Assembly: GCF_029960785.1 (NCBI RefSeq)
Contig: NZ_JASBQE010000071.1
Coordinates: forward strand, 1-63,815
From: Polyangium sp. 15x6
GTDB taxonomy: Bacteria > Myxococcota_A > Polyangia > Polyangiales > Polyangiaceae
DNA length: 63,815 nucleotides
Direction of reading: 5' to 3'
Shown here: piece after piece, positions 1,778 through 59,078 of the stretch
Layout: each line of letters opens with the position of its first letter
Numbering within the stretch: the stretch's first letter is position 1
The notes under the pieces: model-generated
What the model saw: the letters and a program-made list of their open reading frames with translations, nothing else
Databases searched by the model: none
What the model was told of the DNA's origin: nothing
Made by a program: the position numbers and the translations under genes

Positions 1778-4378
1778 ATGGCCGAATCCACGCGGTTTCT
1801 GAGCGGCGAGACCTTCGGCCGGTACGTCGTCGAGTCCCTCCTCGGCGAGGGAGGCATGGGCGAGGTGTATCGCGCGCTCGACACGCGCCTCGGCCGCAGG
1901 GTCGCGCTGAAAGTCCTGCGCAGGGACACAGACCTCTCCGAGGACGCGTGGGCGCACGAGGCCTCGCGCATGCTCCGCGAGGCGCGCGCGGCCGCGGGGC
2001 TCTCGCATGCCGGCATCGTGGCCATCTACGACGTCGGCGAGCTCGACGGCACGGCGTTCATCGCCATGGAGATCGCCGAGGGCGAGCCGCTCCGCGCGCT
2101 CGTCGGCGGGGACGCGGGAGACGCGCGCAAGATCCTGATCCTCCACGACGTCGCGCGCGCTCTCGCCGCGGCCCACCAGGCGGGCCTCGTGCACCGCGAC
2201 GTCAAACCCGAGAACATCGTCGTGAGCCGCTCGGGCACCGTGAAGGTGCTCGATTTCGGCATCGCGCGTGGCCTCGATCGCGAGACCGATCCGGGCGCGC
2301 GCACGCTCGAGGCCGAGCCCGCCGAGTCCCTGTTCCACGGCACCCCCGCGTACACGGCGCCCGAGCAGCTCACGGGCGAAGCGCTGGATGCGCGCTCCGA
2401 TCAGTTCGGCTGGGGCGTCGTCGCGCACGAGCTCTTCGAGGGCGAGCTCCCATTCCGCGCGGACAAGGGCCCGGCGGCCCTCATGAGCTCGATCCTCGCC
2501 GACGAGCCCAAGCCCATGACCCGCGCGCCCGAGGCCATCCGGCCCCTCGTGAAGCGCGCGCTCGCCAAAGACCCCGCGGATCGATTCCCCTCGATGGCCG
2601 CGCTCGCCGACGAGCTCGCGCTCCTGTCGCTCGAAGCCGACGCGGCCCCCGAGCCTCCTCTCCCGACGAACCCTCCCGGAAGGGCCCCTTTCCCCGCGGA
2701 CCGCGCGCTCGCCCTCGTCGCCCTCGTCGCCGTCCTCGCCGCCTTCGCGTGGATCGTCGTTCGTCGTGAAAAGCCTTCCGACGCCGCGCCCGTCTTGCCT
2801 GCGGCATCGGCCGCGCCGCCGCCCAGGATTGCGATCACCGATCTCCCGCTCCCGACCACGGACAGCCCCGAGGCGCTCGTCGCGTATCGCGAGGGAGTCC
2901 AGGCCGTGCGGGATGCCTCCTGGGCGACGGCGCGCTTCGCCTTCGAGCGGGCCCGCAAGGCCGATCCTTCGCTCGCGCTCGCGCACCTGCGTTATGCAAT
3001 GGTCGCGATGGACACCGAGGACCTCAACGCCTCGCGCGAGGCCTACCGGGTCGCCTTCCTCTTGCGGTCCTCGCTCAGTGACCGGGATCGCTCCCTGCTC
3101 GACGCGCTCGAACCCTTTTTGCAGCGCGACCCGCCCGACGTCGCCGAGATGCGCCGCCGCTTCGCGGAACTCTCGGCCCGGTACCCCGGCGACGCCGAGC
3201 TCGTGTACTGGGAGTTTTTCCCGATCCCCCAGCGCAAGCCGGCCGATCTCCTCGCGTTCACCGAGCGTTGCCTCGCGCTCGACGATCGATATGCCGATTG
3301 CTTGCAGATCCAGGCCCGCGCGCTCATCGCGCTCGGGCGGCACGAGGAAGCGCGGCGCGCGCTCGATCGGTGCGTCGAAGTCGCTCCCACCGCGGGCGAC
3401 TGCATGTTCGACCGGGCGGCCGTGGAGATCATGTCGAACCGATGCGTGGGCCTCGAAGAGGTCACGCGGAGCTGGGTCGCGCGCGAGCCCGATCTCGGCC
3501 GGGCGCACAGCTATCTCGCGTGCTCGCTTTATGGGCAGGGCCGCGAGAACGCCGCCGTCCGCGCCGTCGTGGACACGGCGACGCAAAAGCTCCGCGCCTC
3601 GGGATTCCAGGTGGAGGCCTTGACGCTCGACTTCGGCTTTGCCGCGGGCACGGGGGATTTCGAGTCCGCGCTCCGGATCGCGCGACAACCGGGCGTCGTC
3701 GGCGACATCGACCACGAGGCCGGCCCTACGGCCAGACACGTCTTTCTTTTGATGGAGCTCGGGCGCACCGCGGACGCGGGCCGCGTCGCGCAGGACTTCC
3801 TCGCGCGGCAGACCGCCTCGCTCCGCTCGGCCACCATGGATTGTATCGTCGATCCCGAGCCCTCGTTTTATGCCGCCGCGCATCGCGCGGGCCTGCTCTC
3901 GGAGGCCGAGCGCGCCTCCCATCGGGAGTCCTGGATACGCCGCTGCGTGCAGGAGGGTGACGCCGCAGGCGCCTGGTACGGCGGGTATGCCCTGCCCGTG
4001 ACGACGCCCGACGAGGCGCACGAGGCCCTCGCCGCCATGCCCCGCTCCTCGCTTCCTGAAGGCATCCCTTACTACCGCGCCCAGTCTGCCGCCGCCCTGC
4101 GCGGAAAAGTACGTTTCCTCGCTGGCGACATGGACGGGGCCCTCCCGGACCTCGTCGAGGCCTCCTCCCATTGCGGCATGTTGCTGGATCCGGTTCATTA
4201 TCTGCAGAACCAGCATCGCCTCGGCGTCGCGCGTGAAATGCGCGGTGAAAAGGACCTCGCGTGCGAGGCGTATCGGGCCGTCCTTTCGCGGTGGGGTGAG
4301 TCGAAGGACTCGATCACCGCGCGTGATGCCGCGCGTCGGGCCAAGGCGCTCGGCTGCGAGCCTCGGCCCGGACCCTGA
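1778..4378 (+). CDS. Membrane serine/threonine protein kinase with periplasmic TPR tail
   Basis: 866 aa. It has a complete Hanks-type kinase domain: glycine loop GEGGMGEVY (from residue 23), Lys45 in ALKVL, HRDVKPEN (His139, Asp141), DFGIAR (Asp159) and a TAPEQ activation-segment end. A single membrane helix (LALVALVAVLAAFAWIVV, about residues 305-325) is followed by a 540-residue TPR-like domain with paired cysteines (RC-LALDDRYADC; RCVEV-PTAGDC) and a final LGC. The kinase end should be cytoplasmic and the tail periplasmic, as in PknB-like receptors. It would phosphorylate Ser/Thr of unknown partners. The start at 1778 is 3 bases after the upstream stop with only a weak ribosome site, which suggests translational coupling. 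It is a paralogue of the genes on both sides, consistent with tandem duplication. Confidence 0.93.
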   Translation: MAESTRFLSGETFGRYVVESLLGEGGMGEVYRALDTRLGRRVALKVLRRDTDLSEDAWAHEASRMLREARAAAGLSHAGIVAIYDVGELDGTAFIAMEIAEGEPLRALVGGDAGDARKILILHDVARALAAAHQAGLVHRDVKPENIVVSRSGTVKVLDFGIARGLDRETDPGARTLEAEPAESLFHGTPAYTAPEQLTGEALDARSDQFGWGVVAHELFEGELPFRADKGPAALMSSILADEPKPMTRAPEAIRPLVKRALAKDPADRFPSMAALADELALLSLEADAAPEPPLPTNPPGRAPFPADRALALVALVAVLAAFAWIVVRREKPSDAAPVLPAASAAPPPRIAITDLPLPTTDSPEALVAYREGVQAVRDASWATARFAFERARKADPSLALAHLRYAMVAMDTEDLNASREAYRVAFLLRSSLSDRDRSLLDALEPFLQRDPPDVAEMRRRFAELSARYPGDAELVYWEFFPIPQRKPADLLAFTERCLALDDRYADCLQIQARALIALGRHEEARRALDRCVEVAPTAGDCMFDRAAVEIMSNRCVGLEEVTRSWVAREPDLGRAHSYLACSLYGQGRENAAVRAVVDTATQKLRASGFQVEALTLDFGFAAGTGDFESALRIARQPGVVGDIDHEAGPTARHVFLLMELGRTADAGRVAQDFLARQTASLRSATMDCIVDPEPSFYAAAHRAGLLSEAERASHRESWIRRCVQEGDAAGAWYGGYALPVTTPDEAHEALAAMPRSSLPEGIPYYRAQSAAALRGKVRFLAGDMDGALPDLVEASSHCGMLLDPVHYLQNQHRLGVAREMRGEKDLACEAYRAVLSRWGESKDSITARDAARRAKALGCEPRPGP

Positions 4379-4414
4379 CGGACCGCGCCGGGCGTGCTGT
4401 TCCGCACAGCGTTG

Positions 4415-4950
4415 CGCTCTTCGGGCCCCCCTGAGGGGCATGAACCGCAAGACAAAGCGCACTCCGGGCCCCCCGAGGGGGCATGCACCGCAACGTCGAG
4501 CGTGCCGAATGCCCTCCGAGGGTAGGGCAACGCTTGTCGTTGCGGTGCGTGCCCCTTCGAAGCCTCCTTTGGTGCGTAGGCTAACCGTCGAGGGGCACCC
4601 CCGGAGGGCCAGGGAGCGCTTCCTGCTTCGGTTGGCATGCCTTCGAGGGGTCGATGGGCGCAACGCGTTGCGAGGGTCGGGCCTCGGAGGCCTCCCTCAT
4701 CGCAAGCGGGAGCGATGTTCGGGCCTCGTGAGGCTGGCCATCTCACATCTCCGAGCCCTTTTCGACCCTTCGAAGGGGTCTCGCACGCTTCGTCTTGCGT
4801 ATCGGACCCCTCGGGAGGCACCTCGCACGCAATGCGAAGCGGTCGGGGACCCTCCGGGGGGGGTCGAGGGCGGTCGCGCTTGCGTAGGCGCATGCCGGCG
4901 AGGGGGTCGCGGATGGGAGGAGGACGTGGCTTTGCTCCCCTCGGACCGTA
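4415..4950. repeat. Degenerate ~43-bp tandem array of palindromic units (array 1)
   Basis: The 793-base gap between two kinase genes has no convincing gene. It holds about 13 diverged units, each with a GC-rich inverted repeat such as CCCTCCGAGGG, GGCCTCGGAGGCC or ACCCTTCGAAGGGG. The centres fall near 4433, 4475, 4518, 4559, 4604, 4645, 4687, 4730, 4772, 4815, 4858, 4900 and 4942, so the spacing is 41-45 and usually 42-43 bp. One unit contains GCAACGCGTTG, which recurs in the array near 22 kb. Open frames cross the block in all frames, as expected for such GC-rich DNA. Function is unknown. The 4951-5171 remainder should contain the promoter of the next kinase, but I see no clear -35/-10 pair. 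Confidence 0.75.
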
Positions 4951-5171
4951 CGCCCTCCTTTGCTGCGAGTGGTTCGCCCTCCCGCAATGGGGCCCAAACG
5001 CATTTCGCCCTGCGCACGTGCGCCGTCCATTGAAGCGCCTCGGCATGGAAGTCCGGTAGCGCCCCGTGCTCTCGACGTGGACGCACGGGCCTGTGAGCCT
5101 GGCGCGGACCCTGACGAACCGCGCCATCGTCCCTGGGCGGGAGGGCCTGGACGGGCTACGATGTTCCGGCC

Positions 5172-7995: not shown

Positions 7996-9630
7996 ATGAC
8001 CGCCACCCGAAGAGCCCCCGACGAGCCTACCGCCTCGGACCCCGAGCAGATCCTCCGCGCCGCCACGCGGCTCCAGCTCGAGCTTGCCAGGGTCTCTAGC
8101 GTCCTGCGCGAGCGCGGCGGCGATCTCGCGCGGGACCTGCCGGACGACATCGACGCCCTGAACGCGCAGCTCGGGAGCTTCCGCGCGAGCCTCGACACGG
8201 AGAGGCGCGAGCAGGAGGGCGCGATGTCGCGCGAGGCGCAGGCCGCGCTCTTCGAGGTCGGCAAGGCGATCACCTCCTCGCTCGATCTCAAGACCGTGCT
8301 GAACCAGTGCATGGACTCCGTGATCGAATTGACGAAGGCCGAGCGTGGGTACCTCGTCCTCGCCGATCACCAGGGCAACCTCGTCGTCCAGGTCGCGCGG
8401 AACCTCGATCAGGACACCATTCGCAGCATGGAGTTTGCGTATTCGAGCTCCGTGGTCGAGGAGGTCTTGAGGAACGAGCGCAGCGTCCTCACGAGCAATG
8501 CGCAGACGGACGAGCGATTCGCGCTCCAGCGCAGCGTGGCGATGTTCCGGCTGACGAGCATCATGGCCGCGCCGCTCCGCATCCGGGGCAAGGTGATCGG
8601 TGTGCTCTACGTCGACAACCGCGCCTTCACCGGGCAGTTCTCCCAGGCGAAGCTCGATTTGCTGGAGGCGTTCGCCGGGCAGGCCGCGATCGCGATCCAC
8701 AATGCCAAGCTCTTCGGGCAGACGGACGAGGCGCTCAAGCAACGCCTCCTCGAGCTCGAGGGCCTCTACAAGGAGCTCGCCGTGGCTCGCGAGCGCGCGG
8801 AGAATGGCCTCGCGGCCGTCGAGCGCGAGATGCAGATCGGCCGCGTCCTGCAGTCCGAGTTCCTCCCGCGCGAGCTGCCCTCCTTGCCCGGCTGGCAGAT
8901 CGCCTCGCGCTTCATGCCGGCGCGCAAGCTCTCGGGCGATTTCTACGACGTCTTTCAGCTCGCCTCCGGCGAGCTCGCCGTCGCGATCGCCGACGTCTGC
9001 GACAAGGGCGTCGGCGCCGCGCTCTTCATGTCCCTCGTCCGCGGCCTGCTCCGCGCCTTCGCGCAGCGCGCCACGAATCCGAACGAGGCCCTCACGGCGA
9101 TCACCCAGACGAACGATTACCTCGCCGAAAACCATGGCCGCACGGCCATGTTCACGACCCTCTTCTTCGGGCTCCTCGATCCGGAGAGCGGCGAGCTCTC
9201 CTATATCAATTGCGGGCACGACGCGCCGATCATCCTCGGCGCGACGGGCGAGGAGAGGCGCCTCGAATCCACGGGCCCCGCGCTCGGCGCCATTCGCGAC
9301 GTCGAATTCGAGACGGGCCGCGTGATCCTCCTCCCGGGCGATTCCCTCGTCGCCTTCACGGACGGCGTGAGCGACGCGCTCGACCCGTCCGAGAGCCCGT
9401 TCAGCGAGGAGGCGTTCCTCTCGATCCTGCGCGGCGGCGCGCCCTCCGTCACGGCCATGCTCGGCGACGTCGTGGCCGCGCTCCGGAACCACATCGGCAG
9501 CGCCGCGCAGTTCGACGACATCACCCTGCTCGCGCTCCGCCGCAATCCCCCGCGCCGCGAGTTCCCGACGGGCCAGTACCGCATGCTCGAACCGATTGCG
9601 CAGGCCGTGGGAAAGCGCAACCGACGCTGA
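7996..9630 (+). CDS. GAF domain-PP2C (SpoIIE/RsbU-type) phosphatase
   Basis: 544 aa. Residues about 85-240 resemble a GAF domain (SLDLKTVLNQCMDSVIEL, then VIGVLYVDN). A coiled-coil linker (about 240-290) follows, and then a PP2C/SpoIIE domain with the expected metal aspartates in SGDFYDVF, ADVCDKG and FTDGVSDAL, plus YINCGHDAP. RsbU-type enzymes dephosphorylate anti-anti-sigma (STAS) proteins or Ser/Thr-phosphorylated partners in response to a signal bound by GAF. Its position 100 bases after a kinase gene suggests it may oppose the kinases, which is inference. No membrane segment is visible, so it should be cytoplasmic. The start is ATG at 7996. Confidence 0.9.
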   Translation: MTATRRAPDEPTASDPEQILRAATRLQLELARVSSVLRERGGDLARDLPDDIDALNAQLGSFRASLDTERREQEGAMSREAQAALFEVGKAITSSLDLKTVLNQCMDSVIELTKAERGYLVLADHQGNLVVQVARNLDQDTIRSMEFAYSSSVVEEVLRNERSVLTSNAQTDERFALQRSVAMFRLTSIMAAPLRIRGKVIGVLYVDNRAFTGQFSQAKLDLLEAFAGQAAIAIHNAKLFGQTDEALKQRLLELEGLYKELAVARERAENGLAAVEREMQIGRVLQSEFLPRELPSLPGWQIASRFMPARKLSGDFYDVFQLASGELAVAIADVCDKGVGAALFMSLVRGLLRAFAQRATNPNEALTAITQTNDYLAENHGRTAMFTTLFFGLLDPESGELSYINCGHDAPIILGATGEERRLESTGPALGAIRDVEFETGRVILLPGDSLVAFTDGVSDALDPSESPFSEEAFLSILRGGAPSVTAMLGDVVAALRNHIGSAAQFDDITLLALRRNPPRREFPTGQYRMLEPIAQAVGKRNRR

Positions 9631-9673
9631 TCCAGGCGTTGAAAAACGCGGGCGACGCGGGTAGCCTGCGAGC

Positions 9674-10576
9674 GTGTTCGTCGTTGGTGGGAGACGCCTC
9701 TACGGCAAGGTCGAGCAGGTAGGCAGCACCTACATCGCGACGACGTTCGCCTTCCTTCAGTTCCTGCCGCTCTTCCCCGTGCAGTCGCACATCGTCGTCG
9801 CCGAGGGCTCGGCCGACACGCACAAGGTCGTGCACATCAAGATGCACTGGAAGAGCGTGGCGACGGGGTATCTCCGCGCCTACGGCATCGCCGCGAGCCT
9901 CCTCGCGCTCGTCCCGGGCCTCGCCATGGCGGGCACCTCGAAGGTGCCGACGGCGTATGTCGGCGCGGGCCTCGTGGTCCTTTGCGCGGGCCTGACCACG
10001 GCGGCATTCTCGATGATCGGCCGCCTGAGCCGCGAGGAGAAGGCGCAGCGGCTCATCTACGCGCGTTTCCTCGGGCATCCCGTGCATCCTTCGGTGCTCG
10101 ACGAGGACATGCGCGGCGCAATCGCCCAGAAGCTGCGTGATTTCCTGGAGGAGCGCGCGGCGGCCGTGATGACGGGCTCGAATTACCGCAAAGGCGGCCC
10201 CGTGAAGGCCGGTTATCGCGTGCTCGCGCTCGAGCCGTCGATGCGGGATCGCGAGTATCTCGAAGCGGCGTTCACGCTCGCTTGCATCGACACGTCGCTC
10301 TCCGTGGGCCCGATGCGCGCCGACGCGGAGCGCGTGCACGGGGCGCTCTGGAACAAGCTGCTCGCGGAGCACCCGGACGTCCTCGATGTCGTGCGCGACG
10401 CCGAGGTCGTGCAGCGGTCGTGGGTGAGCAATGTGCTCGGATATGTCCCGCTCGTGGCGGCGATCGGCATCTGCTGCGTGATGCTCATGCGCAACGGCTC
10501 CGTCTTCAAGTGGAAGCCGAGCCCGAGCGAGAAGAAGCCCGAATACGGCTTCGTGCCCGAAGAGCTTTTGCGCTGA
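9674..10576 (+). CDS. Conserved membrane protein of unknown function
   Basis: 300 aa from a GTG start at 9674. The N-terminus (VVGGRRLYGKVEQVG, then FAFLQFLPLFPVQ) is short and compact. Hydrophobic stretches lie near residues 75-95, 97-117 and 252-268, with a soluble central helical region between the second and third. I do not recognise a family. The YLRAYG and SYVPL-like hydrophobic pieces suggest an inner-membrane protein. It follows the phosphatase by 43 bases on the same strand and may be co-transcribed. An alternative start is possible because no strong ribosome site precedes the GTG, but the first residues look conserved-like and in frame. Confidence 0.75.
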   Translation: MFVVGGRRLYGKVEQVGSTYIATTFAFLQFLPLFPVQSHIVVAEGSADTHKVVHIKMHWKSVATGYLRAYGIAASLLALVPGLAMAGTSKVPTAYVGAGLVVLCAGLTTAAFSMIGRLSREEKAQRLIYARFLGHPVHPSVLDEDMRGAIAQKLRDFLEERAAAVMTGSNYRKGGPVKAGYRVLALEPSMRDREYLEAAFTLACIDTSLSVGPMRADAERVHGALWNKLLAEHPDVLDVVRDAEVVQRSWVSNVLGYVPLVAAIGICCVMLMRNGSVFKWKPSPSEKKPEYGFVPEELLR

Positions 10577-10724: not shown

Positions 10725-13547
10725 ATGAGGCGATTCACGCGTGCTTCCTTGTTGTCTCTCGGCCTCGCGATATCGTTCGTGGGGGTCTCCGGTTGTGCGG
10801 ACAGTGGACCGAACAACACCGGGGGCACGGCAGGAGGAGGAGGAACCGGCGGGCAAGGCGGCGCCGCGGGGCAAGGCGGCACAGGCGGGCAGGGCGGCGG
10901 CCAGGGCGGACAAGGCGGCGCCGCTTGCACCGACGGCGAGACGCGCGCCTGTTATGACGCCGATCCGGCCACCGCCGACAAGGGCGAATGCAAGCAGGGC
11001 ACGCAGACGTGCACAGGCTCGGTCTGGGGCGCGTGCACGGGCCAGGTCTTGCCTGCCTCCGAAGCGTGCGACGGCAAGGACGAGGATTGTAATGGCCAGG
11101 TCGACGACGGCATCGCGGACGTGACCTGCGGGCTCGGCCAGTGCCAGGTGAAGGTCCCGGGCTGCGTGGACCAAACGGTCCCCGAATGCACGCCGCTCCC
11201 GCCTGCCGCCACCGAGGCCTGCGACGGCGTCGACGACGATTGCGACGGCACGATCGACGAGGGCTGCTCCTGCTCCGACGGCGCGACGCAGTCCTGTTAT
11301 TCGGGCGGCGCGGGCACGCAGGGCATCGGCGTTTGCAAGGCCGGCACGCAGACGTGCGCGGGCGGCGCGTGGGGCGCTTGCGAGGGCGAGACCGTGCCCG
11401 GCGTCGAGACCTGCAACGGGTCCGACGACGATTGCGACGGGAAAACCGACGAGGACCTCGGGCAGCTCAACTGCGGCGCCGGCGCCTGCTTCGTCACCGT
11501 CGCGGCCTGCGCGAACGGCGTGCCGCAGACGTGCACGCCGGGCAATCCCAAGGCCGAGACGTGCAACGGCGTCGACGACGATTGCAACCTGCTCATCGAC
11601 GACGGCCTCGGCACCCTCACCTGCGGCATCGGCGGTTGCCAGACCACGGTGCAAGCGTGCCTCGGCGGGCAGGCACAGACGTGCATGCCGGGGCTCGGGA
11701 CGGCCGAAATCTGCGACGGCGTCGACAACGATTGCGACGGCAACACGGACGAGGGCAACCCCGGCGGCGGCGCGGGCTGCATGACGGGGCTCTCGGGCGC
11801 CTGCGCGCAAGGGACGCAGGTCTGCAACGGCGGCGCGATCCAGTGCATGCCCACGGTCCAGCCCGTGGCCGAGTCCTGCAATGGCAAGGACGACGATTGC
11901 GACGGGCAAGTCGACGAGCAGAACCCCGGCGGCGGGAGCGCCTGCAACACGGGGCAGCTCGGCGTCTGCGCGGCCGGCACCACGGCCTGCCAGAACGGCG
12001 CCCCCGTCTGCACCCCGAACAGCCAGCCCACCGTCGAGACCTGCGACGGGTTCGACAACAACTGCAACGGCGCGGTCGACGAGCAGAACCCCGGCGGGGG
12101 TGTGTCCTGCCAGACCGGCAAATCGGGCATCTGCGCGGCCGGCACCACGTCCTGCCAGAACGGCCAGACCGCGTGCGTCCAGACGAACCAGCCGAGCCTG
12201 GAGATCTGCGACGGGCTCGACAACAACTGCAACGGCACGGTCGACGAGGGCAACCCGGGCAGCGGCGGCGTGTGCCCGACGGGCAAGCAGGGCGTCTGCG
12301 CCGCCGGCACCTACCAGTGCCAGAGCGGCGCGCTCGTCTGCGTGTCGACCACGATGGCCTCGACCGAGGTCTGCGACAACAAGGACAACGATTGCGACGG
12401 GGCCGTCGACGAGAACAACCCGGGCGGCGGCATGGCCTGCGCGACGGGCCAGCAGGGCGTATGCAGCGCCGGCACGTCGACGTGCACGAACGGGGGCATC
12501 GTTTGCACCCCGACGACCCTGCCCTCGGCCGAGACCTGCGACAACAAGGACAACGACTGCGACGGCGTGGTCGACGAGGGCAACCCGGGCGGCGGCTCGG
12601 CCTGCATGACGGGCCAGCCGGGCGTCTGCAGCGCGGGCACGCAGCTCTGTCAAAACGGCACGATCTCGTGCGTCGCGACGACGATGCCCACGACCGAGAC
12701 CTGCGACAACAAGGACAACGACTGCGACGGCCAGGTCGACGAGAACAACGCGGGCGGCGGCGGCGCGTGCACGACGGGCCAGCAGGGCGTCTGCGGCGCG
12801 GGGACGTACGTTTGTCAGAGCGGCACACTTTCGTGCGTGGCCACGAAGATGCCGTCGGCCGAGATCTGCGACGGGCTCGACAACGATTGCGACGGCTCGG
12901 TCGACGAGGGCAACCCGGGCGGCGGCGTGGCTTGCGGCACGTCGTATGCCGCGCCCTGCACGAACAACACCACGATTTGCCAGAACGGCGTGCTCGTCTG
13001 CAGCGTGTCGAACGTCTTCGAGGAGACGTTCGCGACCGCGACGGCGGCGAATGGCTGGAACGGCTGGACGCTCGGGACCGAATGGCAGATCGGCACGGCC
13101 ACGTCCTCCACGGGGCACGACGACGGGTATGGCGACCCGTCGACGGATCACACGCCGACGGCCGACAACAAGCTCGCCGGCGTGGTCATCGGCGGCAACG
13201 CCAGCATCGCCTCCACGCACGCGATGTATTACCTGACGAGCCCCATCATCAACACCGCCGGCGCAGGCTCGATCGTCCTCGATTTCTGGCGGTGGCTCAA
13301 CAGCGACTACTCGCCGTACATGACGAACGCCATCGAGGTCTACAACGGGGCGAGCTGGGTCGTCGTCTGGCAGAGCTCCTCGACGTCCATCGAGGATGGA
13401 TCCTGGAAGAACATCGTGCACGACATCACCACGCACAAGAATGCGAACCTGCGCGTGCGCTTCGGGTTCGCGATCGGCGAGATCGACGAGCTCTACAAGA
13501 TGTCTTCCTGGAACCTCGACGACGTCGTCGTGCGCCGCTGCCAGTGA
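10725..13547 (+). CDS. MopE-like lipoprotein with 12 cysteine/aspartate metal-motif repeats
   Basis: 940 aa if translation starts at ATG 10725, which places a lipoprotein signal peptide at the N-terminus with lipobox VSGC. A Gly-rich spacer (GGTGGQGG-type) follows. Then come 12 copies of a repeat built on C-D/N-G-x-D-D/N-D-C-D/N-G-x-x-D-E, for example CDGVDDDCDGTIDEG and CDGLDNDCDGSVDEG. This is the putative metal-binding motif known from MopE and many myxobacterial surface proteins. Cysteines are paired between repeats and probably form disulfides. The last 190 residues (starting near EETFATATAANGW) form a beta-rich module that looks like a MAM/jelly-roll carbohydrate- or adhesion-type domain. 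The likely location is the outer membrane surface. An in-frame upstream start at 10683 would bury the signal peptide and is less likely. Confidence 0.88.
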   Translation: MRRFTRASLLSLGLAISFVGVSGCADSGPNNTGGTAGGGGTGGQGGAAGQGGTGGQGGGQGGQGGAACTDGETRACYDADPATADKGECKQGTQTCTGSVWGACTGQVLPASEACDGKDEDCNGQVDDGIADVTCGLGQCQVKVPGCVDQTVPECTPLPPAATEACDGVDDDCDGTIDEGCSCSDGATQSCYSGGAGTQGIGVCKAGTQTCAGGAWGACEGETVPGVETCNGSDDDCDGKTDEDLGQLNCGAGACFVTVAACANGVPQTCTPGNPKAETCNGVDDDCNLLIDDGLGTLTCGIGGCQTTVQACLGGQAQTCMPGLGTAEICDGVDNDCDGNTDEGNPGGGAGCMTGLSGACAQGTQVCNGGAIQCMPTVQPVAESCNGKDDDCDGQVDEQNPGGGSACNTGQLGVCAAGTTACQNGAPVCTPNSQPTVETCDGFDNNCNGAVDEQNPGGGVSCQTGKSGICAAGTTSCQNGQTACVQTNQPSLEICDGLDNNCNGTVDEGNPGSGGVCPTGKQGVCAAGTYQCQSGALVCVSTTMASTEVCDNKDNDCDGAVDENNPGGGMACATGQQGVCSAGTSTCTNGGIVCTPTTLPSAETCDNKDNDCDGVVDEGNPGGGSACMTGQPGVCSAGTQLCQNGTISCVATTMPTTETCDNKDNDCDGQVDENNAGGGGACTTGQQGVCGAGTYVCQSGTLSCVATKMPSAEICDGLDNDCDGSVDEGNPGGGVACGTSYAAPCTNNTTICQNGVLVCSVSNVFEETFATATAANGWNGWTLGTEWQIGTATSSTGHDDGYGDPSTDHTPTADNKLAGVVIGGNASIASTHAMYYLTSPIINTAGAGSIVLDFWRWLNSDYSPYMTNAIEVYNGASWVVVWQSSSTSIEDGSWKNIVHDITTHKNANLRVRFGFAIGEIDELYKMSSWNLDDVVVRRCQ

Positions 13548-19821: not shown

Positions 19822-20640
19822 TTAAGGGCTCGTCGGGCAGGCTTTCCGGACGCGATCGGCGAGGGGCGAGCCGGGGCTCTCCGAAAGGAATCGGGCCGCC
19901 TCGGCGCGGGCTTCGTCGGCGCGGCCGAGCTTGCATAACGCGAGCACGCGCGCCGCGGCGCGTTCGGCGCGCAGCGATTGGCCCTCCGCGCTCGCCGAAT
20001 TCTCGTCGAGCAAACGCAAAGCTTGCTCCGGATCACCCTCCTGCATGGCGCCGTGCACGGCGCGGAGGCGCCGCGTCTCGGCGAGCAGCGGGTCCGTGGG
20101 CGCGGGGGAAGGCTCGTTCGTGGCGACGGTCGGCGCCGTCCGCCGAGGCTGGGCATTCACCGCCGGCGTATTCGGGAGCGCGGGCGCCGGGGAAGGCGGC
20201 GGGTCGTTCACGGGGGCGACCGTGGGCGGCTCGGCCTCCGCGGGCATCTGCGCGGGCGGGGTTTTTCCCGGCTGCGCAGGGGCTTCGAGGTGCGTCGCCG
20301 CCGGAGGCGTCTCCATGCGCGTCGCCGTCGGACCGAGGATCGCCACGGCGGAGGCGGCGCCGCCCACGAGGACGGCGAGCATTCCTTTCCACGCGAGGCT
20401 GCCGAGGGAAAACACCGCGCCCGTCTTGGCGGCGGACGCGAGCTTCGTCGCGGAGGCGGCCTCGCCGAGCTTCGCCGTCGCGGCGTCGGCGACACGCTCT
20501 CCCCCGACCGAAGCGGCACCACCTGCGGCAATGGCGGCCGCGAGCGCGCGGCGCACGCGGGCGCGGTCTTCGGGCGAGGGATCGTCTCCGTCGCGCCCTG
20601 CAAGAAGGATGGCCCGCGCTTCGGGGCCGAGCTCGCTCAT
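19822..20640 (-). CDS. Membrane-anchored anti-sigma-type regulator with TPR-like tail
   Basis: 272 aa from ATG 20640, which overlaps the stop of the sigma-factor gene (ATGA). The N-terminus is Glu/Arg-rich (PEARAILLAGRDGDD), followed by a hydrophobic segment (WKGMLAVLVGGAASAVAIL, about residues 85-103), a Pro-rich linker and a helical TPR-like tail (LRAVHGAMQEGDPEQALRLL, LALCKLGRADEARAEA). The layout matches membrane-anchored regulators that hold a sigma factor with the N-terminus. I see no zinc-binding anti-sigma (HxxxCxxC) motif. The role is inferred from the coupling to the sigma gene, not from homology. Confidence 0.7.
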   Translation of the reverse strand: MSELGPEARAILLAGRDGDDPSPEDRARVRRALAAAIAAGGAASVGGERVADAATAKLGEAASATKLASAAKTGAVFSLGSLAWKGMLAVLVGGAASAVAILGPTATRMETPPAATHLEAPAQPGKTPPAQMPAEAEPPTVAPVNDPPPSPAPALPNTPAVNAQPRRTAPTVATNEPSPAPTDPLLAETRRLRAVHGAMQEGDPEQALRLLDENSASAEGQSLRAERAAARVLALCKLGRADEARAEAARFLSESPGSPLADRVRKACPTSP

Positions 20641-21269
20641 CGGAGCCTCCACGTATCGCGCGCCCGCTCCCGGGCGACCGCTTGCTCGAAATCACGCCGC
20701 GCCGCCCGCAGCCGCGCATAAATGGTGTTCACGTTCTCCCCGAGCGCGTCCGCAATCTCGGGCGCGGTCATCTGCTCGAGCTCGGCCAGCACGAGCACGG
20801 TGCGCTTGTCGAATTCGAGCTCGTCGAGCAGCTTGTGCAAGAGGCGCGCGCCTTCGAGCCGCGCAGCGTGCTCGTGCGGGCCCTCGGCGCGCTCATCGGG
20901 CACCGAATCGACGTCCACGGCCTCGGCCTTCCCGCAAGCATGCGGGCTCTTTCGCCGGAGCGCGCGGCGATGATCCCGCGCGACGCGGGTGACGATGGAG
21001 CAGATCCACGTCTTCAGCGAGGAGCGCCCCTCGAACTGGCCGAGGCGGCGATAGACGACGAGGAAGACCTCCTGGACGGCGTCGTCGACGAGCGCATCGG
21101 GGACGCCGAGGCGGCGGACGTTGCGGAAGACGAGGTCGAAATGCTCTTCGTAGACGGTCTCGAAGGGCGGCACGGCCACCGCCTCGCCGCCCCCCGAGCG
21201 CGCCGCGGCCGTGGGCTCGGGGGCGAGCGGCGAGGGGAGGGCAGCATGGAAGGACGCGGAAGGAGGCAA
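20637..21269 (-). CDS. ECF-type RNA polymerase sigma factor
   Basis: 210 aa if the TTG at 21269 is used (AAGGA five bases upstream); GTG at 21179 would give 180 aa and still keep all domains. Region 2: YEEHFDLVFRNVRRLGV, DDAVQEVFLVVYRRLGQF and SSLKTWICSIVTRVARDHRR. Region 4: LDELEFDKRTVLVLAELEQM, then TAPEIADALGENVNTIYARL and RAARRDFEQAV. These match ECF factors of the RpoE/SigE type. It shares 4 bases with the regulator gene downstream. The upstream partner (21316-22446) is secreted and could be the output or sensor. Confidence 0.88.
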   Translation of the reverse strand: MPPSASFHAALPSPLAPEPTAAARSGGGEAVAVPPFETVYEEHFDLVFRNVRRLGVPDALVDDAVQEVFLVVYRRLGQFEGRSSLKTWICSIVTRVARDHRRALRRKSPHACGKAEAVDVDSVPDERAEGPHEHAARLEGARLLHKLLDELEFDKRTVLVLAELEQMTAPEIADALGENVNTIYARLRAARRDFEQAVARERARDTWRLR

Positions 21270-21315: not shown

Positions 21316-22446
21316 TCAAAACCGGACCTCGACGCCCAGCTCGGCCCGCCCGAGGACGGGCGAGGCGCGGTGCACGGCGCCGAGGCCCGAGACGACGAGC
21401 TCCGGGTGGACGACGGGGACGGCGGCGCCGAGGCCGACGACGAGGGCGGCGGGGCGGGCGAACGTCCAGGCGAAACGTCCTCCGGCGGAGACGGCGAGCC
21501 AGGCGGCGGCGCCCTGGCCGGGGGAGGAGACGCCGGCGCTCGAGCTCTGGATGCGGCCGGCCTCGAAGGAGACGCAGGGGCCGAGCTCGAAGGGGCGGCG
21601 CTGGAAGAAGGCGGCGCAGGCGCCGACGTGGGCGAGGGTGAGGTCGATGTCGCCGGAGGCAGAGCCGAGGTTGGGGAAGGAGAAGGTGCGGGTCGGGAGG
21701 AAGGAGATGCCGGCCTCGAGGCGGTACCGGCCGACGAAGAGGGAGAGGGCGGCGCCAAAGCCGACGGTGGGCGTGGGGAAGGTGCCGGCGTCGGCGAGGG
21801 CGCGCGCGAAGAGGGCCATCGGCGGAGGCGGCGGTTGTTGGCGCGCAGACGGAGGGACCGTCGAAGGTGCAACGCGTTGAGGTTCGGGTCGTGGGGGGGA
21901 GGGCTTGGGGGTCGAATCGATTGGGGTTCGGGTCGTGGGAGGGACCGTCGAAGGTGCAACGCGTTGAGGTTCGGGCCGTGGGGGGGAGGGCTTGGGGGTC
22001 GAATCGATTGAGGTTCCGGTGGTGGGGGGGACCTCCGGAGGTGCAACGCGTTGAGGTTTCGGGGGTGGGGGGGACTCCGGCGGGGGCCCCGCGAGCACGT
22101 CCGGCTCGATCATCATGGCGATGATCAGGGCCGCGGCCTCGCCGAGGGCGGCGCAGGAGGCAGCCTCGACCTCACGCGTGCGTGGTCCCTCTTCGCCCCG
22201 CGTCTCCAGACGAACGCGATACCGGCCCGCGTCGCGCTTGACCTCGGCCGTCACGTCGAGCGGCTCCGTCTGCGAACCTCGCCCCCCGAGGAGCCGATCG
22301 ACCTCGGCCGAGATCGCCTCGGCCGTGGGACACCCCTCCGGGGCGGACCATCGCAGACGGACCCCGCCCGACGCGCGCGCATCGGCGGTGAGGCCGAGCG
22401 ACGCGAGGAGGGCGAGGATCAAGGAAGGGGCCCGGGCCCGAAGCAT
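21316..22446 (-). CDS. Secreted/outer-membrane beta-barrel-like protein with proline-rich repeats
   Basis: 376 aa from ATG 22446, giving a signal peptide (RARAPSLILALLASLGLTADARA). After about 95 residues (VRLRWSAPEGCPTAEAI) comes a Pro-rich block of about 85 residues in which a 29-residue unit (PEPQRVAPSTVPPTTRTPID, then STPKPSPPR) occurs almost three times. The last 190 residues have alternating hydrophobic/polar strands ending in RAELGVEVRF, typical of an outer-membrane beta barrel. I recognise no family. The 29-aa repeat is encoded by two 43/44-bp units of a DNA repeat found elsewhere in the window. It is adjacent to, but 46 bases from, the sigma gene downstream. Confidence 0.75.
   Translation of the reverse strand: MLRARAPSLILALLASLGLTADARASGGVRLRWSAPEGCPTAEAISAEVDRLLGGRGSQTEPLDVTAEVKRDAGRYRVRLETRGEEGPRTREVEAASCAALGEAAALIIAMMIEPDVLAGPPPESPPPPKPQRVAPPEVPPTTGTSIDSTPKPSPPRPEPQRVAPSTVPPTTRTPIDSTPKPSPPRPEPQRVAPSTVPPSARQQPPPPPMALFARALADAGTFPTPTVGFGAALSLFVGRYRLEAGISFLPTRTFSFPNLGSASGDIDLTLAHVGACAAFFQRRPFELGPCVSFEAGRIQSSSAGVSSPGQGAAAWLAVSAGGRFAWTFARPAALVVGLGAAVPVVHPELVVSGLGAVHRASPVLGRAELGVEVRF
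21850..22090. repeat. 43/44-bp tandem repeat inside a coding sequence (array 2)
   Basis: Units beginning TTGAGGTTCGGG or TTGGGGTTCGGG start at 21877, 21921, 21964, 22008 and 22051, so spacing alternates 44, 43, 44, 43. The units carry GACCGTCGAAGG or ACCTCCGGAGGT palindromic cores and GCAACGCGTTG. Because 43+44=87=3x29, the repeats keep the reading frame of the minus-strand gene. Confidence 0.85.
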
Positions 22447-58419: not shown

Positions 58420-58830
58420 GGAAAACCCGAGGAGCGGGGGCGGGCGCGAGACAGCCGTCGAAGATGAACCCGAGGAGCGGAGAGGGACCCGAGAGCGGTC
58501 ATGATCGCCATCCCCAGGAGCAGGATCGGAGCCGGTGCGGGACCCGAGGGCAGACCTGAGGAACGGCTTCCGGTGCGAGGTCGGACTTGGAGGCAGACCC
58601 GGGGAGCGGTTCCGCGTGCGATGTCGGACCAGGAGGCAGACCCGAGGAGCGGTTCCGGGTGCGATGTCGGACCAGGAGGCAGACCCGAGGAGCGGTTCCG
58701 GGTGCGATGTCGGACCAGGAGGCAGACCCGAGGAGCGGTTCCGGGTGCGATGTCGTACCAGGAGGCAGACCCGAGGAGCGGTTCCGGGTGCGATGTCGGA
58801 CCAGGAGGCAGACCCGAGGAGCGTTCCGGG
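58420..58830. repeat. 43-bp tandem repeat array (array 3)
   Basis: Ten units start at 58420, 58463, 58506, 58549, 58592, 58635, 58678, 58721, 58764 and 58807, each exactly 43 bp apart. Units 5-9 are nearly identical (GGCAGACCCGAGGAGCGGTT, then CCGGGTGCGATGTCGGACCA, then GGA). The first four are diverged and the last is cut at the transposase remnant. 43 is not a multiple of 3, so all six frames stay open and spurious proteins appear. Confidence 0.95.
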
Positions 58831-58832
58831 TC

Positions 58833-59078
58833 GTCATCCCGGATCTCGCGCCGGCCGCGCCGATCCCCGCGCTCCTTGTGCGGGAGGTCGAGGCGTCTCT
58901 CCGGTGCGGGCTCCTCGAATATGGGGGCATTCGTGTGGCGTGCGAAGGTTGCGGGTCCGAGCGATTGGTGAGTTTCAGCTGCAAGCGACGCGGGTTCTGC
59001 CCTTCGTGCCTGGGGCGACGGATGAGCGACGGCGCGGTGTACCTGACCGAGCGGATCCTGCCCGAGCGCCCAAGATAG
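58833..59078 (+). pseudogene. N-terminal remnant of an IS91-type transposase
   Basis: 81 codons ending in a stop at 59078. The segment REVEASLRCGLLEYGGIRVA, then CEGCGSERLVSFSCKRRGFC and PSCLGRRMSDGAVYLTERIL matches the zinc-finger N-terminal part of IS91-type transposases (C-x2-C, C-x6-C-x2-C). The stop truncates it before the catalytic domain. Its missing C-terminus-like part lies upstream at 56791-57177 on the same strand, the reverse of a normal gene order. Confidence 0.75.

Follow-up and report, generated by a model that had tools for sequence, protein, structure and literature searches.

A dispersed 43-bp tandem DNA repeat of Polyangium is read in two or three frames within the proline-rich linker of a predicted beta-barrel protein

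REP/BIME repeats and the mycobacterial MIRU repeats are dispersed short units that form tandem arrays and lie mostly between genes. Rickettsia palindromic elements (RPE) and the intragenic MITE-like repeats ERIC, YPAL and RU-3 are described as intergenic palindromic repeats that are also translated within genes (PMC2229807, PMC10969869), and PARCEL as palindromic DNA in tandem copies that encodes the repeats of membrane-targeted proteins (PMC2996958). Here we analyzed a stretch of 63,815 nucleotides from Polyangium sp. 15x6 (contig NZ_JASBQE010000071.1, assembly GCF_029960785.1; hereafter the window), in which a 376-codon gene contains a proline-rich block encoded by short tandem repeats. We conclude, with a probability of roughly 0.8, that this block is a tandem DNA repeat of the intergenic type that became part of the gene and evolves by DNA turnover. 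The features concerned are as follows.

21319..22446, minus strand: 376-codon gene encoding a signal-like N-terminus, a small alpha/beta domain, a Pro-rich linker and a C-terminal beta-barrel (open reading frame [ORF], translation and orthologues); its stop codon is at 21316-21318
22108..22365, minus strand: N-terminal alpha/beta domain, residues 28-113, with a conserved WSAPEGCP motif (AlphaFold2 model)
21847..22086, minus strand: Pro-rich linker, residues 121-200, predicted disordered (predicted local distance difference test score [pLDDT] of the block, 43-55)
21322..21819, minus strand: predicted C-terminal OmpA/OmpX-like beta-barrel, residues 210-375 (AlphaFold2 model and Foldseek)
21871..22087, plus (G-rich) strand: tandem array of five units belonging to the 43-bp family (matches of 29-42 bits to profile R1, see below)

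The units start at 21871, 21915, 21958, 22002 and 22045, and their spacings of 44, 43, 44 and 43 bp bear out the alternation proposed in the initial annotation, which was also correct in equating 43 + 44 = 87 bp with 29 codons, the double unit of 87 bp being a 29-codon repeat; the length of the last unit is fixed by no spacing. A partial unit prolongs the array leftward to 21851 (array, 21851-22087). Tandem Repeats Finder (TRF) reported 87 bp x 2.6 copies and 44 bp x 5.1 copies, and the self-match at lag 42-44 over 21851-22074 was 0.561, whereas the highest value among 1000 dinucleotide shuffles was 0.484, a periodicity far above chance. Of the sequences first ascribed to the units, ACCTCCGGAGGT (22031-22042) and CAACGCGTTG are genuine palindromes, and GACCGTCGAAGG is not. 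An Rfam search of the window returned no match.

A BLAST search of the window species' genome (13.4 Mb in 275 contigs) with the gene array located further arrays at C52 (E 7.8e-23), C60 (E 2.1e-20) and C164, with weak matches at C36. The repeats have the core AACGCGTTGAGGTTCGGGTCGTGGGRGGGA in a 43-bp unit, and R1, a sequence-only profile of which those BLAST matches are independent, was built from 22 real units, four of the window gene's five being in the model. The window-gene units belong to this family, defined here as the Polyangium 43-bp GTGGG family. Across six Polyangium genomes (G000, the window species; G003, P. fumosum; and G001, G002, G004 and G005), R1 gave 84 matches at E<=0.01, present in all six and grouped into 20 arrays, namely, the six orthologous gene arrays and 14 others found in five of the six genomes (none in G004). 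This census is a lower bound, with 150 of 8,000-10,000 first-look candidates scored per genome, and BLAST added two further family arrays in G005 (11525730 and 11547172). The other phased arrays consist of 43-bp units, apart from one 42-bp unit each in G005 and G002 and the G001 C1 array, which ends irregularly. We applied a both-sides test, which requires a single open frame across the array and a coding support of 20 or more on each flank. The gene array passed it in all six orthologues (the window gene and five others), and 13 of the 14 other family arrays showed no sign of coding by it, the fourteenth (G001 C6) passing. At C36 of the window species (L114:3928-4135), a family-like array has palindrome arms between which the G-rich spacer seems to run in the opposite orientation, as in a flipped hairpin loop.

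Within the window, all five R1 matches lie in the 376-codon gene. The kinship that had been proposed with an array near 4.66 kb survives as a common period and not as sequence: R1 finds no unit at 4.4-5.1 kb, and the two regions have a single 11-mer in common. CAACGCGTTG itself occurs four times in the window (0.13 expected), three times in the gene array and once at 4661.

The coding strand of a unit starts CCACGACCCGAACC, which reads PRPEP in frame 0, PTTRT in frame 1 and PHDPN in frame 2. Successive units are in frames 0-1-0-1-0 in the window species and G004, 1-2-0-1-2-0 in P. fumosum, 1-1-1-2-0 in G005, 0-0-1-2-0 in G002 and 0-1-2-0 in G001, so that two frames are used per linker in the first two species and three in the other four, with the final unit in frame 0 in 6/6 orthologues. 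Because the unit length is not a multiple of three, successive near-identical units give differing peptides. For example, units 2-5 of P. fumosum are 91-95% identical as DNA and encode PHDPNRSAHR, PRPEPKRVSV, PTTQTEARIG and PHDPNRSAHR, a succession of three peptides that selection for a peptide repeat would not leave. Of the six species, just two, the window species and G004, show the 29-residue repeat. Four of the six have units that cross all three frames, so that repetition in the peptide is a side effect of repetition in the DNA; the linker array evolves as DNA, and the peptide follows from the frame. Furthermore, the ratio of nonsynonymous to synonymous differences per site (pN/pS) was 0.12-0.43 in the N-terminal domain, 0.32-0.70 in the barrel and 0.39-1.41 in the linker (0.73-0.95 in 12 of 15 pairs), the linker value being rough, with protein alignments that cross shifted frames. 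It was above both flanking domains in 14/15 pairs, the exception being G000-G004 at 0.39.

The family also sits in a second, unrelated gene. G001 C6 (L277:1859-2093) encodes part of a protein whose match to PilZ is weak (21.0 bits, below the cut-off of 22.5), in which six units of exactly 42 bp each, all in a single frame, give a 14-residue repeat. This array, which was outside the R1 training units, aligns with that of C52 (E 3.8e-28, 77%). The PilZ-like protein is present in 6/6 genomes and carries the R1 family in its gene in G001 only; the corresponding linkers of the other genomes are unrelated Pro/Ala-rich sequence, some with 14-residue (42-bp) repeats recognizable by eye. Three frame solutions were thereby observed: 42-bp units, 43/44 alternation and cycling through the frames.

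A match to the 376-residue protein was found in 43 of 59 genomes searched (own genome counted). Those of the five congeners extend over residues 1-376 (3-376 in G001) at 75-87% identity, and identity outside the genus was at most 48% among the matches listed. All six Polyangium orthologues have the array at the same linker; the check suggested at the outset, whether orthologues lack the Pro-rich block, thus found it in 5/5 congeners, and an R1 search of 33 non-Polyangium homologue loci, some of them covering part of the gene, gave 0 matches. Linkers read outside the genus are of other low-complexity types, e.g., PT/AT or GADP runs. The array was probably in the gene before the split of the six species, unless it was lost elsewhere, as judged from its presence in 6/6.

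Searches of Pfam and NCBIfam with the 376-residue protein returned no match. An AlphaFold2 model from 12 sequences (mean pLDDT 74, predicted template modeling score 0.46) showed a small alpha/beta domain, then a low-confidence linker, then the C-terminal barrel. Foldseek aligned the barrel with the OmpA transmembrane domain 1bxw (target-normalized TM-score [TMt] 0.70, 13% identity) and with OmpX 1qj9 (TMt 0.69), and the predicted model has eight main strands, which places the barrel, as modeled, in the OmpA-like eight-stranded fold; barrel proteins of pathogens among the Foldseek matches reflect likeness of fold alone.

We also compared the gene arrays with the intergenic ones, leaving out C36 (G001 C6 yielded no units). 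In G003 and G005, the gene array has the unit type of the intergenic arrays in the same genome (0.74-0.88) and is less similar to the gene arrays of the four remaining species (0.67-0.77). Overall, gene-intergenic similarity was 0.779 within the same genome (12 pairs) versus 0.696 between different genomes (60 pairs), with a label-shuffle p of 0.0008 that overstates the difference, since the excess stems largely from one lineage whose unit type fits other genomes too. This own-genome likeness fits some conversion between arrays, without proving conversion.

Several observations weigh against the reading of the block as an intergenic-type array that turned coding. As regards ectopic exchange, the gene arrays resemble each other on average (0.795) as much as they do the intergenic arrays of the same genome (0.779), the own-genome excess comes mostly from G003 plus G005, which have an identical consensus, and their unit type is also like G002 C121 (0.86) and G000 C52 (0.81). 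Units 1 and 6 of P. fumosum are merely 65-86% like its remaining units, and the unit consensus of the window gene shows no dyad symmetry above chance (z -0.2). No empty-site orthologue was found within the genus, leaving the direction of transfer unproven, and the partial cover of some outside loci and the roughness of the linker pN/pS count here as well. Finally, the value of 0.39 for G000-G004 makes selection on the peptide possible in that pair.

The explanation that we favor is as follows. The dispersed Polyangium family, with its 43-bp unit and arrays mostly between genes, would be the source of the gene array, and one array would have settled, before the six-species split, in the linker between the alpha/beta domain and the OmpA-like barrel. 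In 12 other family arrays, stops are present on the C-rich strand in 7 and on the G-rich strand in 11, and the Pro share is 13-41% in each C-rich-strand frame. The C-rich strand, which is the coding one, is Pro-rich in all frames and has fewer stops than the G-rich strand, and the gain, loss or conversion of units could therefore do little harm if the downstream frame is restored. Turnover would take place at the DNA level by slippage, unequal exchange and perhaps conversion with arrays of the same genome. Selection would keep the domains and the overall frame and leave the peptide repeat itself unselected, the linker acting as a tolerated flexible spacer in a presumably expressed protein. The protein family seems to persist because the linker need only stay open. 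The term "domesticated" used initially is half apt: it suits a linker that is tolerated and kept open, and a benefit is at most conjectural.

Among the alternatives, the one that survives best holds that arrays arise in place by sequence-blind tandem duplication with a fixed step of ~42-43 bp (near four helical turns), the family being one lineage spread by recombination. A Polyangium process would then lay down tandem DNA at this step regardless of sequence and be filtered by the reading frame within genes, the window gene being one case. The evidence comes from 1.6 Mb of three genomes (G005, 800 kb; G000, 400 kb; G001, 400 kb; L133-L172, L193-L212 and L233-L252), a sample that is not random: the G005 stretches lie between 0.1 and 8.7 Mb of a 13.2-Mb genome, the G000 contigs are among those matched by the gene-array BLAST and the G001 contigs among those bearing family arrays, and no sampled stretch contains a family array known from the R1 census. 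TRF rows with a period of 30-60 not divisible by 3 were 43 bp in 22 of 24 cases (the others, 59 and 31). The 22 rows form 18 loci, of which at most 1% was called coding, versus 85% for the sampled DNA, and which lie between convergent (7), tandem (8) or divergent (3) genes. Since the simple gene caller picked up the barrel part alone of the 376-codon gene and left out its linker, these rows also had to be subjected to the both-sides test: 0/22 passed at 20, and three period-43 rows passed at 15 (at L238, three overlapping rows reach 29/19 coding support, antisense to a strong gene). The arrays are mutually unrelated, with a mean best match of 20.1 of 43 versus 19.9 for shuffled sequences, and a match of at least 28 in 4/243 pairs, 3 of them in one locus (17 of the 22 rows, those with a consensus of exactly 43 letters, plus 6 others). 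The unrelated 42-bp repeats in PilZ-like orthologues that do not have the family point the same way. The window has three such arrays, at 4.4-5.1, 21.9 and 58.5 kb; its features outside the 376-codon gene are as follows.

4380..5060, no strand assigned: diverged intergenic array with a 42/43-bp period and unrelated sequence (best lag 42; 0/1000 shuffles reach its score)
58420..58840, no strand assigned: 43-bp array of unrelated sequence, 6.6 copies, 94% in the core 58549-58831 (also in G004; no spanning coding frame)
20637..21179, minus strand: ECF sigma factor gene downstream of the 376-codon gene (Pfam Sigma70_r2 and r4_2)

Two further observations concern the window: the RNA fold computed for 4400-4900 is much more stable than those of shuffled sequences (z -8.3), and 11885-12927 holds 6.3 tandem copies of a 165-bp unit, a length divisible by 3, which probably form a coding repeat.

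Against a fixed step, common descent with fast divergence could preserve the period too, and this is the main alternative to it. Other periods are also frequent: TRF rows that are <20% coding were most numerous at 43 (22), 21 (20), 27 (17), 18 (14) and 42 (10) bp, those scoring >=100 at 43 (22), 42 (10) and 21 (9), and periods of 85-86 (12 rows) and 127-130 (7 rows) likewise occur. Intergenic segments of >=200 bp had a periodicity peak at z>5 in 42/305 cases, 14 of them at exactly 43, but in their pooled spectrum multiples of 3 lead, and the top 25 lags include 42 and 129, not 43. We know of no mechanism for such a duplication step, and 1.6 Mb is a sample, from which ~150 mostly intergenic, unrelated arrays per genome would be extrapolated under this reading. 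We regard it as tenable and on balance not probable. Beyond the genus, 300 kb of G048 (another family of the order) gave 41 bp three times (L191:10726-10955, L225:13888-14198 and L227:3869-4136), 43 bp in a pair of adjoining rows and a single row of 34, and 300 kb of G023 (another genus) gave 37 bp twice and single rows of 47 and 31; no non-3n row of period 30-60 was found in G024 or G036 (100 kb each) or in 137 kb of homologue loci. The preferred repeat step may differ from lineage to lineage. Two ideas were rejected: dyad symmetry as the hallmark of the 43-bp class is strong in some family arrays, absent in the unit consensus of the window gene and not distinctive over the sampled rows (p 0.08 versus 59 3n-period rows, for a set of 29 rows that also included 41- and 37-bp rows), and DNA folding as the overall explanation gave z from -4.8 to +2.7 over 7 stretches.

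A classical mobile element, in which the unit or array transposes like an RPE or a MITE, appears doubtful. Copies are dispersed beyond the gene in 5/6 genomes, some units form perfect 22-bp palindromes, and several family arrays show dyad symmetry beyond chance. In addition, the array of unrelated sequence at 4.4-5.1 kb occupies a 736-bp segment (4365-5125) between 25-nt direct repeats (4365-4389 and 5101-5125), and by coordinates only, its flanks abut in G003, G004 and G005 with an overlap of 27-35 bp and are separated by ~1.6 kb in G002 and ~7 kb in G001. However, no clean insertion of a family array was seen at the few flanks compared, and the C60 array is part of a 2.5-kb segment (L112:3844-6347), with an ORF alongside, that is missing at the G005 site. 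The arrays are moreover tandem, not single, and no transposon ends were identified, terminal repeats and transposases not having been searched for. The initial description of a mobile or expanding repeat read as protein holds for its dispersal, its occurrence outside genes and lengths that keep the frame open; the mobility is deduced from the dispersal.

Selection of the peptide repeat (PEPQRV...) as such, with DNA likeness resulting from codon choice, is very improbable. The regular one-frame 14-residue repeat of the G001 PilZ-like protein, the 29-residue repeat common to G000 and G004, and the recurrence of Pro-rich or other low-complexity linkers in homologues whose sequence was read would all suit it, but the same DNA occurs in arrays without coding support, and four of six species read alike units in three frames. 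That two distinct genes flanking an intergenic array were joined by chance, as the call of the barrel part alone might suggest, is scarcely credible given a linker that is open with coding support on both sides in 6/6 species and several homologues outside the genus with both domains in one ORF.

If the block is, as we favor, an intergenic-type array evolving by DNA turnover, a DNA repeat here generates protein sequence through its own mechanics, and the linker offers a natural test of the freedom of disordered linkers and of how non-coding repeats turn coding. Should the 43-bp period hold genome-wide, it would suggest that these large genomes undergo a step of replication or packaging, no description of which was found in the open-access literature searched. 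That literature, outside which most subscription journals fall, likewise yielded no 43-bp class in myxobacteria and no bacterial tandem units read in three frames; PMC3577435 has no bearing on the matter.

The likeness to REP/BIME and MIRU repeats is one of general layout. The Polyangium family resembles RPE and MITE-like elements in being an intergenic repeat that also lies inside genes and is translated. Those elements are single, ~100-200 bp long and fused in frame with one conserved peptide, whereas the Polyangium units are short, tandem and read in two to three frames in each of six orthologues. PARCEL units have 75 nt and encode a conserved amphipathic motif of 25 residues; the Polyangium units of 42-44 nt (43 nt, not a multiple of three, being the family unit) encode Pro-rich, predicted disordered sequence with no conserved peptide, and most family arrays, unlike PARCEL, are without coding support. 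Of the two findings, the common 43-bp period is the stranger, and the coding array is a variant of the known intragenic repeats.
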